Assembly: GCA_905612275.1 (NCBI GenBank)
Contig: CAJQRM010000034.1
Span: forward strand, 1 to 33,440
Source: an uncultured Candidatus Nitrosopumilus sp.
Lineage (GTDB): Archaea; Thermoproteota; Nitrososphaeria; Nitrososphaerales; Nitrosopumilaceae
Direction of reading: 5' to 3'
Length of the DNA: 33,440 nt
Positions 2 through 6,057 of this stretch are shown here, in pieces. A program made the translations under genes and the position numbers. The notes beneath the pieces were generated by a model. That model was not told the DNA's origin, ran no database searches, and saw nothing but the letters and a program-made list of their open reading frames with translations. Every line of letters begins with the position of its first letter. Positions within the stretch are counted from its first letter, which is position 1.

Positions 2-928
2 ATTGCCAAGGATATTCCTTATGCTGCATGGAAATTAGGCTTGTTAGATGATCCGTTTTACTATCAAAAATATGATGCCACTCAACCTAATTCTAAAACT
101 CTCTGGCAAACTAGTTTGAATGATGAGAATACTACTGCTCAAAATTTTACTGCTCAGAAAGTTGTCACAGTAATTGATTCACGTCAAGAAAGATTACAAA
201 AAATTATTACCGTACTAATGGAAAAATTCAATTCAATTCCTGATAGTTATGTTCATCTTGGATATGAATCTGTAACATTAAGTTCTGATACTGCAAAAAC
301 TCTGGGATTGGAAACTGATGGAAAACAAGCTCAGATGTCTGGTAGAAAAGGATTGTATGTTAGTGCTGATTCTGTATGTGAACTTTTAAAACAAAAAATT
401 ATTGAAGAAACTAAAAAACGACATCCTGAAATGAGTGATTCAGAAACTGAAAAAATTGCTCAATCTATTTCAATTGGAACTTTACGTTATGAGATGATTA
501 AACAAGATTTGGATAAAATAATTACATTTGATTTGGCAAAATCTCTTAGTTTAGAAGGTGACACTGCCCCATACATTCAATATGCATATGCTAGAGCATC
601 AAGAATTTTAGAGAAATCTGGAATTAAACCCACTACTGATGTTGATTTTTCATTACTTCAAGAAAAATCTGAACTTGATTTAGTTAAAACAATTGGTCTT
701 TTTAATTTACAAGTTCGTGATGCTGCAAATAATTTTGCACCTAAAGTAATCGCTAGATACTGTCATGATTTGGCAGTAGCCTTTAATTCATTTTATGAAC
801 ATGTAAAAGTTTTAGATTCTGACAATGATGCTTTGAAATCCTCTCGTGTATGTTTGGTGAATTCTTTTAATTTAACTTTGGAGAAAGCCCTTGATCTGCT
901 TGGAATTGATTCTCCTACTAGGATGTAG
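2..928 (+). CDS. argS: Arginyl-tRNA synthetase, C-terminal part (5' end outside the window)
   Basis: This is the C-terminal roughly 308 residues of arginyl-tRNA synthetase, which charges tRNA-Arg with arginine in the cytoplasm. The open frame runs in from the window edge, so the HIGH-motif half of the Rossmann domain is missing. Visible family features are the late catalytic-domain signature MSGRKG followed by YVSADSV, the ALSLEG-like segment SLSLEGDTAPYIQYAYAR, and the C-terminal anticodon-binding helices with ARYCHDLAVAFNSFYEHVKVL-like sequence (ending in VKVL). These match class Ia ArgRS. The gene ends in TAG and is followed by a 7-bp palindrome (932-946) and then a structured, relatively GC-rich intergenic region. 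No feature suggests a broken gene; truncation is by the window only. Confidence 0.93.
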   Translation: MAKDIPYAAWKLGLLDDPFYYQKYDATQPNSKTLWQTSLNDENTTAQNFTAQKVVTVIDSRQERLQKIITVLMEKFNSIPDSYVHLGYESVTLSSDTAKTLGLETDGKQAQMSGRKGLYVSADSVCELLKQKIIEETKKRHPEMSDSETEKIAQSISIGTLRYEMIKQDLDKIITFDLAKSLSLEGDTAPYIQYAYARASRILEKSGIKPTTDVDFSLLQEKSELDLVKTIGLFNLQVRDAANNFAPKVIARYCHDLAVAFNSFYEHVKVLDSDNDALKSSRVCLVNSFNLTLEKALDLLGIDSPTRM

Positions 929-963
929 GTTTTTAGAAATTCTAAATTAAATTATTATTAAAA

Positions 964-1046
964 GAATGTCACTGGCAACCGAAGTTGCCAGCGGAGAATT
1001 TCTTGTTTAACAACCAAAGTCATTAAACATACAATACCAATTCTCG
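964..1046 (+). ncRNA. Candidate structured RNA (nested stem-loops) downstream of argS
   Basis: The 256-nt gap between argS and the next gene holds three stems that can form together. Stem A is an 8-bp perfect hairpin CTGGCAAC (972-979)/GTTGCCAG (984-991) with a CGAA loop. Stem B is GAGAATT (994-1000) with AATTCTC (1039-1045). Stem C, GTTTAA (1005-1010)/TTAAAC (1023-1028), nests inside B. The stretch is richer in G and C than its surroundings, a classic sign of structured RNA in AT-rich archaea. I recognise no Rfam family. It could be a separate ncRNA, the argS 3' UTR, or a 5' leader of the exported protein gene at 1185. The strand is assumed from the flanking genes. Confidence 0.35.
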
Positions 1047-1184
1047 CGGCGTGCAAATTGTAATTTTATGAATTTACAAGTTTTACAAAAAGGTTAGTAT
1101 TTCATGGATTGTATGATTTTGTGCCTGAATTTTGGTCATATTTTTGAAAATTTTACATATTACTGGAATCTTGGATAAGATCTT

Positions 1185-3416
1185 ATGCGAATAACATTTT
1201 TAGTAATTTTTGTGTTATCCATAATTATTCCAATTGGAGTGAATGATGCTTTTGGTGCATTTGTCAATGATGATATCTGTAATTCACTCAAACACATACC
1301 AAATAATTCTTGGAAATTATTTTTGTGTTCAACTGTGGAGATTAATGGGGATGCACCTGGTATTACATTAACAAATGATGATCGTTTTGGTGACTCTGTT
1401 GCAAACATTGGTGATTTGGACGGCGATGGAGTCAATGACTTGGCAGTAGGTGCAATGAGGGATGATACTGGTGGTACAGATCGTGGTGCAGTGTACATTT
1501 TGTTTATGAACACAGATGGCTCTGTCAAGTCAACTGAGAAAATTGATCATACAACTCCAAACGGTCCTGCATTAGGAAATGTAGATCGTTTTGGTGACTC
1601 TGTTGTAAACATAGGTGACCTTAACGGTGACGGTATCAATGACTTGGCAGTAGGTGCAGTAAATGATGATACTGGTGGTGCAAATCGTGGTGCAGTATAC
1701 ATTTTGTTTATGAACACAGATGGCTCTGTCAAGTCAACTGAGAAAATTGATCATACAACTCCAAACGGTCCTGCATTAGGAAATGGAGATAATTTTGGAC
1801 ATGGAGTTGCAAATATTGGTGACCTTGACGGCAATGGTTATGATGATTTAGCAGTAGGTGCAATGCTGGATGGCACTGGTGATAGTGGTGCAGTACATAT
1901 TTTGTTCATGGATGAAAATGGTGGTCTTGCAAAAGCAACTGAGAAAATTGAAGATGATAATATAACTCCAAACGGTCCTGCATTAGGAAATGGCTATTGG
2001 TTTGGTGGTTCCGTTGCAAACATAGGTGACTTTGACGGTAATGGTGTCAATGATTTAGCAGTAGGTGCAAACCTTAGCCCTGGTGGCGGTTCAGTAGCAA
2101 CAGGAGCAGTATACATTTTGTTCATGGATGAAGACCCTGGAAATGGTCTTGCAAAAGCAACTGTGGTGATTGACGATACAACTACAAACGGTCCTACATT
2201 ATCAGATGATGATCGTTTTGGCTCTTCTGTTGTAAATATGGGTGACATAGATGGTGACGGTGTTAATGACATAGCAGTAGGTGCTCGTGGTGATGATGAA
2301 GGTGGATTATGGACTGGTGCAGTACACCTTTTGTTTATGAATGTAGATGGTTCTGTTGATTCAACTGTGGAGATTAACAGTTCTACTGATAAGGGCCCTA
2401 CATTATCAGCTGGAGATGCTTTTGGTACTAGTCTTGCAAACATAGGTGACCTGAATGGTAATGGCGTCAATGATTTGGTGGTGGGTACTAGTTTAGATAA
2501 TGGAGGTGGTTCAGATCGTGGTGCAGTACATATTTTATTTCTGACGGATGAAATTGAAAAAAATGGTTCAGAATGCTATGATTGTGAGGCTCCAAAATTA
2601 ACCCGAGTTGAAGTACACATAACGTCTCCAAATTCCGACACTCAACGTATATCTACATCTAGTGAAATTTGGAATTTTGATCAAGATACTCCACTACCAA
2701 TGTTTGGAGATTCTATCACTCCAATTGTAGCAGACACTGGGGATGAGGTTGAAATTATTTTAGAATTAACAGACAATAGAACTTTGAAAACGATTACAGA
2801 TAGTGGAACGTATACAAATTTCTTAAACAAACCTGATGACATGAATCTATTTTATGCTAATAATTTTGATAAATATGGAAAGGTCAGTACAACATTTTAT
2901 GAATGGTATCAAACAGGTGATGATTTGTTTTATGATTATGCAAACACTGTAGAGTGGAGTGAAGCTGATGTTACAATACAAGAATCTGGAGAATTTGTTA
3001 AAGATGGACCTGTTGAAAATCTCGATGAATTAGTTGGAACTTTTACCATTTCATTTAAGATGAAATTCTTGCAACCAATGCAAACAACTGATGTGTGGAT
3101 TCAAGTAGCAGATCTTAATGGAAATTTTTTCAAAGTTGCATTACCGTTAACTTTGGAAATATCTGGTTCTGAACCTCTTGTGTTTGATTCTCCATTACGT
3201 CAAAAAGTAGTTAGTTTCTTTGATGAAGAGATGCTTACACAATTAGTTTCTAATTGGGATGGGTCTTCACAAGATGTTGCTGAATTGGAATTATTAATTG
3301 GCATTCCTGCTGAATCTGTGCCTACATGGGTCGTAAATCTTGCAACATGGGTATCTGAGGATAAAATTACTACTGGTGATATGATCATTGCAATTGAACA
3401 TTTGATTAATAATTAA
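1185..3416 (+). CDS. Exported FG-GAP/integrin-alpha-like repeat protein
   Basis: This is a 743-residue secreted or cell-surface protein. A signal peptide (hydrophobic residues about 4-24, ending near NDAFGA) is followed by six FG-GAP beta-propeller repeats between about residues 60 and 460. Each has an FG-S-V-NIGD start and a calcium-binding loop of the D-x-(D/N)-G-(D/N)-G type (for example DLDGDGVND, DLNGDGIND, DFDGNGVND). A C-terminal beta-rich region (about 475-670) is related to part of the next protein. The last 60 residues (VPTWVVNLATWVSEDKIT) resemble the short W-rich C-terminal module common in exported thaumarchaeal proteins. FG-GAP propellers are known for adhesion and ligand binding; the ligand here is unknown. 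ATG 1185 is chosen because it begins the signal peptide directly. Confidence 0.85.
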   Translation: MRITFLVIFVLSIIIPIGVNDAFGAFVNDDICNSLKHIPNNSWKLFLCSTVEINGDAPGITLTNDDRFGDSVANIGDLDGDGVNDLAVGAMRDDTGGTDRGAVYILFMNTDGSVKSTEKIDHTTPNGPALGNVDRFGDSVVNIGDLNGDGINDLAVGAVNDDTGGANRGAVYILFMNTDGSVKSTEKIDHTTPNGPALGNGDNFGHGVANIGDLDGNGYDDLAVGAMLDGTGDSGAVHILFMDENGGLAKATEKIEDDNITPNGPALGNGYWFGGSVANIGDFDGNGVNDLAVGANLSPGGGSVATGAVYILFMDEDPGNGLAKATVVIDDTTTNGPTLSDDDRFGSSVVNMGDIDGDGVNDIAVGARGDDEGGLWTGAVHLLFMNVDGSVDSTVEINSSTDKGPTLSAGDAFGTSLANIGDLNGNGVNDLVVGTSLDNGGGSDRGAVHILFLTDEIEKNGSECYDCEAPKLTRVEVHITSPNSDTQRISTSSEIWNFDQDTPLPMFGDSITPIVADTGDEVEIILELTDNRTLKTITDSGTYTNFLNKPDDMNLFYANNFDKYGKVSTTFYEWYQTGDDLFYDYANTVEWSEADVTIQESGEFVKDGPVENLDELVGTFTISFKMKFLQPMQTTDVWIQVADLNGNFFKVALPLTLEISGSEPLVFDSPLRQKVVSFFDEEMLTQLVSNWDGSSQDVAELELLIGIPAESVPTWVVNLATWVSEDKITTGDMIIAIEHLINN
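1495..1785 (+). repeat. Perfect 87-bp direct repeat inside the FG-GAP gene (copies 1495-1581 and 1699-1785)
   Basis: Two 87-base segments are identical, 204 bp apart. They cover the end of FG-GAP repeats 1 and 2 and the linker encoding STEKIDHTTPNGPALGN. The other repeats of the propeller have diverged, so these copies point to recent duplication or gene conversion within the gene. Confidence 0.85.
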
Positions 3417-3468
3417 TTTTTAATTTCAATATCAGAATGTTTAAAGTTCTTTGTTAGCTATATTTTTC

Positions 3469-6057
3469 ATGATGTTATCTTCTAAATTCACATTTTCACT
3501 TATTGTAATAGCAGCTTTACTAGTATCTGGATCAGGTCTTGTGATTCAAGACTCATTTGCTGCAATTGATGCACCAGAATTTACTGCTATTCACCTTAAC
3601 ACGACAGCAACTCTAGTTACGTTTGACAAATCAGTTAACGGAACTTTAGCCATTTTAGATTGGACTATAATGGTATCATCAACTGGAACTGATGGTGATA
3701 TTCTAACTGATGTTGCAATTACTAATGTTGCCAATGCAACTAGTACAGGAGTTGGACAAACTGTACCAGGTGATGGTGATAAAAAAACTGGAGTCAGTAG
3801 TGGCACAGGAGTTGTTGGACTAGGATACATCAATGGTACAGATATTGTTCTCATACATTCTGCTATTCCCTCTGATGCAAGATATTTCGTAAATTATACT
3901 AACAATGCTGCTTCATTAGCTGATGCAATTAGACAGTTTGGTCAAATACACGCCAACGAAGCTGGTTCAGTTGAAGGTTCACTAGGTGGTGGTCATGGAG
4001 GTGCAACCGGTGCTGCTGTAGTAGAGAATGCATCTATCAAATATTTGAAAATTGGATCCAATGCAACAGCTGTTGATTATATGTCTCCAACTGTAGTTTC
4101 TGCTGAGAAAACTGGTCCAAAAAAAATTGCAGTTTTAATGTCTGAAACTGTAGTAAATATTAATTCAACTGGTTCTGCTTTTGTTCTTTCTGGATTACAT
4201 GATTCTGTTGTAGCTAGTCTGATTGCCACTAATAGCACTAACACTATCTATCTTACAACTCGAAACTTGATTGATCCAATTAATGACACTCCTGCAATTA
4301 CTTTGAGTTATAATTCAGATCCTGATGGTGATAACGTAGGTATCGATAGTTGGATTACTGATGGTGTAAACACTGGTAATTATACTACTCTCGGCACTGA
4401 TGGCAAATACACGTTAAAGCATCAACAATCAGGGGCTGGACACGGTAATAGATTATACAATTTCACTGGTTTGGTTGTCACCTATCCTACTGATTTTAGT
4501 CCTGACGCTCAACGTTATCCTCCACATATTCATGATGAGGTTTCTGTCTCTATCAATTCTGATGAATTATATGATTTAAAAATACACGATAACATCACTT
4601 CAAATATTTTAGCATCTGTTGGTGACACAATTTCTGTAACTGTGAGTATTGGTGATGATTATTTTTTGTCTGGTATTTCTAGAGCCACTCTAATTACAAA
4701 TTATGCTCATGAACCTTCAGGCATGAATAATTATTTTAGAACAAATCATGATGAACTTGGTCAAACAGGTTTATCTATTTATGAATGGAATCAAAATACT
4801 TTTGATCAAAAATATGATTATGCTGGAGTCATCTCTTGGGATGAATCTATTATAAAAATTGATAAAAGAATTGAAACTTATCATGAATTTGTTGGACCTC
4901 TGTTATATGATGAAAATGAATTGTTTGTTACATATTTGATGACATTTGATGATGCTATGCCAACAAGTCAAGTTGGTATAAAAATTAGTGATACAAATTA
5001 TAATAATTTTAAATCTTTTCTACCATTTACTTTGGAAGTACTGCCAAATGATACAATAGTAATTACAGAACCCGCTGAAGAACCCGCTGAAGAACCCGCT
5101 GAAGAACCCGCTGAAGAATCCACTTCTCTTGAATCTGAACTTGTAGAGATAACTCTAGTTACCAATAGTAATTCATATGAAAATGGCGATAAAGTGATTG
5201 TAACTGGTCAAATTCAAAATTATGATTTCACTTCCATGAAAGGTAAAGATATTTTGTATGATGTTATTTCTCCTGAAAATATAGTTTTATCTTCAGGTCA
5301 TATTGCACCTAATTCTGATGGATCTTTTTATTTTACAACTTTTGCAATGGATACAATGTGGAAAACAGATGGAAATTATGTTTTTAGTGTTGATCTGAGA
5401 TCTCTTAAACAAACCATAGACATTTCTTATGATAATACTCAATTTGAAACTCCTATACCTGAATCTGAAATAACATCTGTCCCAATAATTACTGAAGCAA
5501 CACCTGAAGCAACACCTGAAGCAATACCTGAAGCAATACCTGAAGCAATACCTGAAGCAATACCTGAAGCAATACCTGAAGCAATACCTGAAGCATCTAA
5601 TTCTAATATCATATGTGGAACTGGAACTGAGGATGTAAACGGTATTTGTCAAGTTGTAAAAACTGAAGATAAATCATCCAAAGGTGGCGGTTGTCTAATT
5701 GCAACAGCAGCTTATGGTTCTGAGATGGCACCACAAGTTCAATTACTTAGAGAAATTCGTGATAACCAATTAATGAATACAGAATCTGGTTCAGCATTTA
5801 TGACAGGATTTAATGAATTGTATTATTCATTCTCACCAATTATAGCTGATTATGAGCGTGAAAATCCATACTTCAAAGAAGCTGTCAAGTTAGCTATTAC
5901 TCCCATGATTTCCACTCTATCACTAATGGAGAATGCAGAAACTGAGTCAGAAGTTTTGAGTATTGGATTATCCGTAATTGCACTCAATTTGGGAATGTAT
6001 CTTGGAGTTCCAGCTATAGTTATAATTGGAATTAAAAAACGATCGACAATCTATTGA
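3469..6057 (+). CDS. Large exported protein with Pro/Glu repeats and a CFI-box C-terminal domain
   Basis: This is an 862-residue surface protein. The start is taken at ATG 3469 (or 3472), just before a signal peptide (SLIVIAALLVSGSGLVI, then DSFAA). The N-terminal 380 residues look like beta-sandwich domains with many Asn/Thr sites and a GGGHGGATG-type glycine segment. Residues about 410-535 match the C-terminal beta domain of the preceding FG-GAP protein. Two low-complexity linkers follow, (EEPA)4 and eight units of the EA(T/I)P type. The C-terminus has GGGCLIATAAYGS, the hallmark of the CFI-box-CTERM family, followed by an amphipathic region and one transmembrane segment (about 835-855) with a basic tail IKKRSTIY. 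Known family feature: this C-terminal module recurs on otherwise unrelated exported proteins. Inferred: membrane-anchored envelope protein. No enzymatic motif is seen. Confidence 0.82.
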   Translation: MMLSSKFTFSLIVIAALLVSGSGLVIQDSFAAIDAPEFTAIHLNTTATLVTFDKSVNGTLAILDWTIMVSSTGTDGDILTDVAITNVANATSTGVGQTVPGDGDKKTGVSSGTGVVGLGYINGTDIVLIHSAIPSDARYFVNYTNNAASLADAIRQFGQIHANEAGSVEGSLGGGHGGATGAAVVENASIKYLKIGSNATAVDYMSPTVVSAEKTGPKKIAVLMSETVVNINSTGSAFVLSGLHDSVVASLIATNSTNTIYLTTRNLIDPINDTPAITLSYNSDPDGDNVGIDSWITDGVNTGNYTTLGTDGKYTLKHQQSGAGHGNRLYNFTGLVVTYPTDFSPDAQRYPPHIHDEVSVSINSDELYDLKIHDNITSNILASVGDTISVTVSIGDDYFLSGISRATLITNYAHEPSGMNNYFRTNHDELGQTGLSIYEWNQNTFDQKYDYAGVISWDESIIKIDKRIETYHEFVGPLLYDENELFVTYLMTFDDAMPTSQVGIKISDTNYNNFKSFLPFTLEVLPNDTIVITEPAEEPAEEPAEEPAEESTSLESELVEITLVTNSNSYENGDKVIVTGQIQNYDFTSMKGKDILYDVISPENIVLSSGHIAPNSDGSFYFTTFAMDTMWKTDGNYVFSVDLRSLKQTIDISYDNTQFETPIPESEITSVPIITEATPEATPEAIPEAIPEAIPEAIPEAIPEAIPEASNSNIICGTGTEDVNGICQVVKTEDKSSKGGGCLIATAAYGSEMAPQVQLLREIRDNQLMNTESGSAFMTGFNELYYSFSPIIADYERENPYFKEAVKLAITPMISTLSLMENAETESEVLSIGLSVIALNLGMYLGVPAIVIIGIKKRSTIY
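5071..5118 (+). repeat. 12-bp tandem repeat x4 encoding PAEE
   Basis: Four exact copies of cccgctgaagaa lie in frame in the exported protein gene. They encode a Pro/Ala/Glu linker. The unit length keeps the frame whatever the copy number. Confidence 0.95.
5494..5589 (+). repeat. 12-bp tandem repeat x8 encoding EATP/EAIP
   Basis: Two copies of gaagcaacacct are followed by six of gaagcaatacct, in frame, forming an acidic Pro-rich spacer before the CFI-box module. The single base change that separates the two unit types is itself amplified, so the array grew after that mutation. Confidence 0.95.

Follow-up and report, generated by a model that had tools for sequence, protein, structure and literature searches.

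Our analysis indicates that positions 957 to 1064 of the window (the whole stretch of 33,440 nucleotides that was analysed) probably represent, on the minus strand, the gene of a small structured RNA with its own promoter, the fixed 5' segment of which would double as an attachment site. The element is conserved, its stems covary, its strand is discernible, it is spread over many related genomes, and at two places it carries insertions that can be compared with insert-free relatives. It is predicted to be transcribed from the minus strand into an RNA of approximately 70-110 nt starting near UAAUUGGUUUGCACG, with the promoter and terminator in use and the 5' segment possibly acting as a seed. 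The locus comprises the following features:

2 to 928, plus strand: 3' part of argS, the 5' end of which lies beyond the window; context, convergent with the RNA
957 to 1064, minus strand: probable gene of the small structured RNA, with predicted ends at about 1064 (5') and about 957 (3'); fold with z -3.51 and 0 of 200 shuffles, homologues and covariation
957 to 969, minus strand: ACAUU followed by a U-rich tail, putatively terminator-like
970 to 993, minus strand: 3' hairpin S3, 984-993 paired with 970-979, UUCG loop at 980-983; from the fold and the class consensus
994 to 1045, minus strand: middle hairpin S2, outer stem 1039-1045/994-1000, inner stem 1019-1029/1004-1014; from the fold
1048 to 1057, minus strand: invariant 5' segment TTTGCACGCC, also the putative attachment-site core; from columns without variation in alignments A1 and A9 and from the insert junctions
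1081 to 1103, minus strand: promoter-like block with an A-rich stretch followed by TTTTTGTAAAA (TATA-like); from the position logo of 86 distinct sites

The preliminary description of this DNA had placed nested stem-loops at 964-1046 on the plus strand. Hairpins do exist there: the plus-strand fold of 954-1056 lies above chance (MFE -23.6 kcal/mol, z -2.64, 2 of 200 shuffles as good) and contains an 8-bp hairpin CUGGCAAC/GUUGCCAG with a CGAA loop, a 7-bp stem GAGAAUU/AAUUCUC that encloses a further nested stem, and a 5-bp closing stem. The reverse complement of 945-1064, i.e. the minus strand, folds better than the plus strand (-32.5 kcal/mol, z -3.51, reached by 0 of 200 shuffles). Moreover, the conserved unit exceeds the end at 1046 given initially, with GGCGTGCAAA at 1048-1057 and the promoter-like block extending to about 1100. 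In line with the description of the region as non-coding, no open reading frame of at least 60 amino acids lies within 961-1065 on either strand, open ends allowed. A short reading frame beginning with the ATG of AATGTC can be seen by eye in class B; this coding reading was discarded because, again judged by eye, a stop follows the second or third codon in the argS class and a number of the changes are non-synonymous.

The orientation of the RNA was deduced from homologues. For 20 mobile-type sequences, RNAalifold gave a consensus energy of -35.7 kcal/mol on the minus versus -14.1 kcal/mol on the plus strand, and for 12 argS-type sequences the values were -35.1 versus -21.9 kcal/mol. When mirror structures were applied to the same 20 sequences, 95.9% of 658 cells could pair on the minus strand versus 82.5% on the plus strand, with covariation scores of 0.374 and 0.246, respectively. 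The A.C mismatches kept in the plus-strand stems are G.U pairs on the minus strand, where the CCGAAG loop of the plus strand turns into a cUUCGg tetraloop. Pairs changed on both sides were found on either strand (14 of 33 on the minus, 16 of 33 on the plus strand), and the covariation score of the plus mirror structure was reached by 0 of 500 shuffles, a statistic that, like the other shuffles, ignores kinship among the sequences. Hence, the plus mirror also covaries, and the strand call depends on the paired fraction, the energies and the additional pair types, of which the plus strand has 29 (reached by 387 of 500 shuffles) and the minus strand 38 (1 of 500). On the minus strand, 12 of 31 pairs in the argS class and 7 of 19 in the class of the window are altered on both sides. 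The RNA would thus be read from the minus strand; the same signal of G.U or G.T pairs might also arise if the minus strand folded as DNA. The plus-strand reading was rejected: the covariance models R1 and R2, built from plus-strand sequences before the strand was settled, detect the same DNA but with mirror-image pairs. A closing stem AUGU/GCGU was likewise dropped, since its pairs barely vary and the minus-strand fold works without it.

These findings bear on what had been suggested initially. The suggested unknown non-coding RNA is upheld by homologues with pairs changed on both sides and by the absence of an Rfam match, and the compensatory changes on which a covariance check was to rely are present; the plus-strand orientation fell with the mirror-structure pairing and the consensus energies of the same homologues. 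With its minus-strand orientation, the RNA lies antisense to argS and is hence no element of its 3' UTR, and it diverges from the gene at 1185-3416 for an exported protein, which it therefore cannot attenuate. This gene (plus strand) encodes an exported-looking protein of 743 amino acids with repeated FGxSVxNIGDxDGDGVNDLAVGA units, which we take by eye to be FG-GAP-like. It is followed at 3451-6057 (plus strand) by the gene of an 868-amino-acid protein that contains PEAIPEAIPEAI repeats and, C-terminally, the motif GGGCLIATAAYGSEMAPQVQ, which was also found beside sites in genomes G071 and G082. The name argS for 2-928 was adopted from the preliminary description and is presumed to be correct.

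Relatives of the element are widespread among related genomes. A blastn search of 200 genomes, including that of the window, gave matches in 24, of which 22 carry the element; antisense matches of the palindromic hairpin were not counted, and the matches L024 and L025 were excluded because they look like chance. Among 95 genomes of the genus, R1 (21 sequences) found relatives in 48 at E 0.01, R2 (12 argS-adjacent sequences) in 54 at E 0.001, and R3, a minus-strand model of 20 sequences that includes the upstream block, in 57 at E 0.001; several sites per genome occur in the R3 scan. Together, the three models detected relatives in 75 of the 95 genomes, including G020 and G070, found elsewhere by R2 and R3, while the other 20 gave no match with R1, R2 or R3. 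R3 misses the window's own copy, which is linked to the other homologues via R1 and the shared 5' segment. In the class-wide search of 400 genomes from 82 genera, R3 matched 98 genomes from 8 genera, all of family f1, and R2 matched 77 genomes from 7 genera. When named genomes were scanned for an 18-base core, 64 stretches were obtained, and 59 of them bear archaeal titles such as Nitrosopumilus, Nitrosarchaeum, Thaumarchaeota and similar. Bacterial titles were found for the remaining five, of which three have no match and L203 has a weak R3 match. The fifth, L208, is titled Phycisphaerae, stems from a metagenome bin and matches R1 and R3 strongly; it is probably a misplaced archaeal contig. 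Among 12 IMG/VR contigs with a 16-base core, neither R1 matches nor integrase relatives were found, and a single weak R3 match (E 0.0045) was obtained. Judged by record titles, the RNA gene appears so far confined to one archaeal family, the Nitrosopumilaceae. At the gathering scores of Rfam 15, the window matches only a tRNA elsewhere and 10 homologous loci gave no matches; four sub-threshold matches at the candidate look like chance.

The general order of the minus-strand element from 5' to 3' is promoter block, UUUGCACGCC, an optional middle hairpin, the 3' hairpin and ACAUU, followed at many sites by a U-rich tail. Unselected evidence for conservation of the 5' segment comes from alignments A1 and A9, the columns of which are invariant there; the 86 logo sites were picked because their core is exact, and right arms of elements are among them. 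Relative to the first U of UUUGCACGCC, the A-rich stretch lies at about -44 to -39 and the T-rich, TATA-like box at about -36 to -30, with T at 84% of the 86 distinct sites at -32; the block thus keeps a fixed distance from UUUGCACGCC. Because of the usual archaeal spacing between TATA box and start, transcription would probably begin 6-8 nt before the first U of UUUGCACGCC. The TATA-like TTTTTGTAAAA of the window is weaker than that of most sites. The inner stem of S2 also appears in the consensus structure for the class of the window, and S2 is missing from short homologues; covariation of S3 was seen in classes other than the window's. In the window's class, the 5' stem is unformed according to both the single-sequence fold and the consensus. 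ACA follows S3, which is an unbroken hairpin in a fold model that does not cover kink-turns, and a match to the H/ACA RNA snR34 stays far below cut-off. At the 59 sites that do not overlap argS, T makes up 62% of the first six bases behind GACA, a bin that includes the conserved AUU, 45% of the next and 35-43% of later bases. TTT occurs within the first 14 nt at 42 of these 59 sites as compared with 25 in a later control stretch; this group contains the G045 site, which adjoins argS and was placed here by its differing motif. At argS-overlapping sites, TTT stands just behind the RNA in 8 of 37 cases versus 34 of 37 in the control stretch, hence a U-rich tail is lacking there.

Neighbouring genes were compared at 97 sites, representing 92 distinct sequences and including loci that stop at a contig end as well as a false-looking R1 match (G020:C31). 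At 38 of them (11 plus 27 of 40), it reaches the stop codon of argS; in the window, about 30 nt separate the end of argS from the presumed 3' end of the convergent RNA. The gene behind the RNA is convergent at 77 sites, the window included, and has the same direction at 17; at three, none is present in the stretch. In the genera g4 and g14 the RNA occupies another locus with the same neighbours in five of five loci, and in the genus g19 the promoter-side genes agree in three of three. All eight of these loci have a gene in the same direction behind the RNA, at a distance of 49-237 nt, so that a leader role may hold there.

Inserts that lie exactly at the core were found in two genera, each at a different locus; they measure 3.1 and 15.7 kb, and their flanks match insert-free relatives. 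In G082, with 3.1 kb between the sites, 300 nt of left flank ending at the core of site 1 and 500 nt of right flank beginning directly behind the core of site 2 are each 94% identical to G059; an integrase relative was not found on this contig. In G259, another genus and another locus with sites 15.7 kb apart, identity to G107 amounts to 82% across 937 nt in the left flank and, starting at the first base, to 77% across 395 nt in the right flank; here, a relative of tyrosine integrases begins 24 nt away from where the R3 match of the first site ends. An integrase or its remnant was also detected 45-48 nt from 9 of the 97 sites, while the stretch examined contained none at the other 88. The features by which attachment sites of tyrosine recombinases are recognised were thus found, i.e. 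insert-free relatives and joints at the core in both pairs, G082/G059 and G259/G107, and an integrase of the family accompanying the element at the nine sites and in G259. With PF00589, only the G073 protein scored above cut-off, that of G085 scored below it and that of G087 gave no hit. When 12 genomes were searched at E 1e-5, an integrase relative was found in six and none in G000 (the window's genome), G003, G036, G107, G112 and G331, G000 and G003 being incomplete. Furthermore, two contigs of G085 share the argS site and diverge directly behind the core, and several genomes possess two or three sites in the same direction with other genes between them. Sequence comparison therefore suggests that mobile elements use the UUUGCACGCC segment as their attachment site and would join there by recombination, presumably performed by the neighbouring integrase. 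Since the same integrase family occurs at two unrelated loci, the insertion target is likely the RNA gene and not argS.

The genes between the sites vary. In G003 they code for an ArsP permease, a low-molecular-weight phosphatase (presumably ArsC-like), a methyltransferase, an HxlR regulator and a symporter, and in G073 for a HicA toxin. One such stretch in G073 (L170, 4512-14926) spans 10.4 kb between two sites and contains integrase, HicA and other possibly defence-related genes, with family hits for integrase and HicA only. At other sites, including two more G078 loci, the shared 5' segment is joined to different bodies. A second body type, roughly GCCAARAATTGTTNACTGAAAGTTGGC, was noticed at L265, L266 (G078), L287-L289, L292-L296, L298 and L302 as well as at the far site of G259, and a third one, a long hairpin GTTAACCG...CGGTTAAC, at L290, L291 and L303.

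In the mechanism that we propose, UUUGCACGCC remains constant and the hairpin body behind it varies by class. As the bodies are exchangeable, we infer that the constant segment does the work, most likely as an antisense seed pairing with other RNAs, while the hairpins would stabilise and terminate the transcript. A search of six genomes for seed targets with GGCGTGCAAAC, one mismatch allowed, gave no evident enrichment. Elements, some with an adjacent tyrosine integrase and some without, would enter inside the RNA gene at the constant segment; recombination at this place is suggested by the fact that each joint keeps promoter block, segment and hairpin body. After insertion, the promoter block of the host would face the RNA body of the element and the element-borne block the host body, so that a complete RNA gene would persist.

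It might also be possible that the site acts only as DNA, the minus strand folding as single strand in the manner of integron attC sites and serving recombination without any RNA function. The strand-specific fold, the sites in the same direction with cargo between them and the crossover at the core are all compatible with this, but it would leave unexplained the TATA-like block at fixed distance, the UUCG loop and the covarying hairpins kept in G036, G107, G112 and G331, whose lack of an integrase relative argues for a host function; we regard a purely DNA-based site as improbable. Somewhat less probable still appears an RNA that belongs to the mobile elements themselves, with the copies at argS and elsewhere being remnants of old insertions. 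Differing bodies do share one 5' segment, and the right flanks of G046a, G059 and G079, which have no intact integrase, resemble that of G022, which has one. However, neighbours are conserved across species at integrase-free places, and the argS class shows structure-preserving change without an integrase.

A cis-acting leader, i.e. a riboswitch or attenuator of a minus-strand gene behind the RNA, would fit the 17 of 97 sites with a gene in the same direction, among them those of g4, g14 and g19, but hardly the 77 with a convergent gene, and the genes behind the RNA differ among genera, which makes such a role very unlikely for the family as a whole. A small RNA gene with a 5' segment that is also used for attachment remains our preferred explanation.

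Descriptions of this RNA were not found in the literature searched, which included parts of PMC6563490, PMC8371274 and PMC5069720 and left most subscription journals and bioRxiv outside. The literature listings searched also contained no small RNA described for Nitrosopumilus-type archaea. These archaea are major nitrifiers of the ocean, and a conserved gene for an RNA whose 5' segment is fixed would make post-transcriptional control testable in them. The RNA gene as an insertion hot spot would account for the arsenic-type and toxin-antitoxin genes behind argS in some species, and the site could serve as a marker for detecting such mobile elements.

Trans-acting small regulatory RNAs combine a 5' seed with a terminator hairpin. 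The element resembles them in its promoter, fixed 5' segment, variable hairpin body and, at many sites, U-rich end; unlike them, it is known from sequence alone and its body is exchanged by insertion. In integron cassette arrays, cargo lies between folded, strand-specific sites, the attC core being of the GTTRRRY type. Common to both are the folded strand-specific site and the several sites in the same direction flanking cargo, whereas here an integrase sometimes lies beside the site inside the element and the cargo genes run in both directions; a GTTRRRY-type core was not seen by eye in the invariant segment GGCGTGCAAA, which is mostly preceded by TTGG. In this regard it is tempting, though rather speculative, to assume a family of small RNAs with fixed promoter and 5' half, the body of which is swapped by site-specific recombination, so that elements re-programme or cap the host RNA and build arrays of arsenic-type cargo as an archaeal counterpart of integron platforms. 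Finally, thaumarchaeal elements attach at tRNA genes and at the 3' ends of protein-coding genes according to the parts of PMC6563490 considered, and the protein-gene targets named in its section 8, as far as covered, do not include argS. With the tyrosine-recombinase elements described in these parts, the present ones share the insertion at a conserved gene that is left complete (PMC6563490); they differ in that the target would be an RNA gene absent from Rfam and that the element would replace the body behind the fixed segment.
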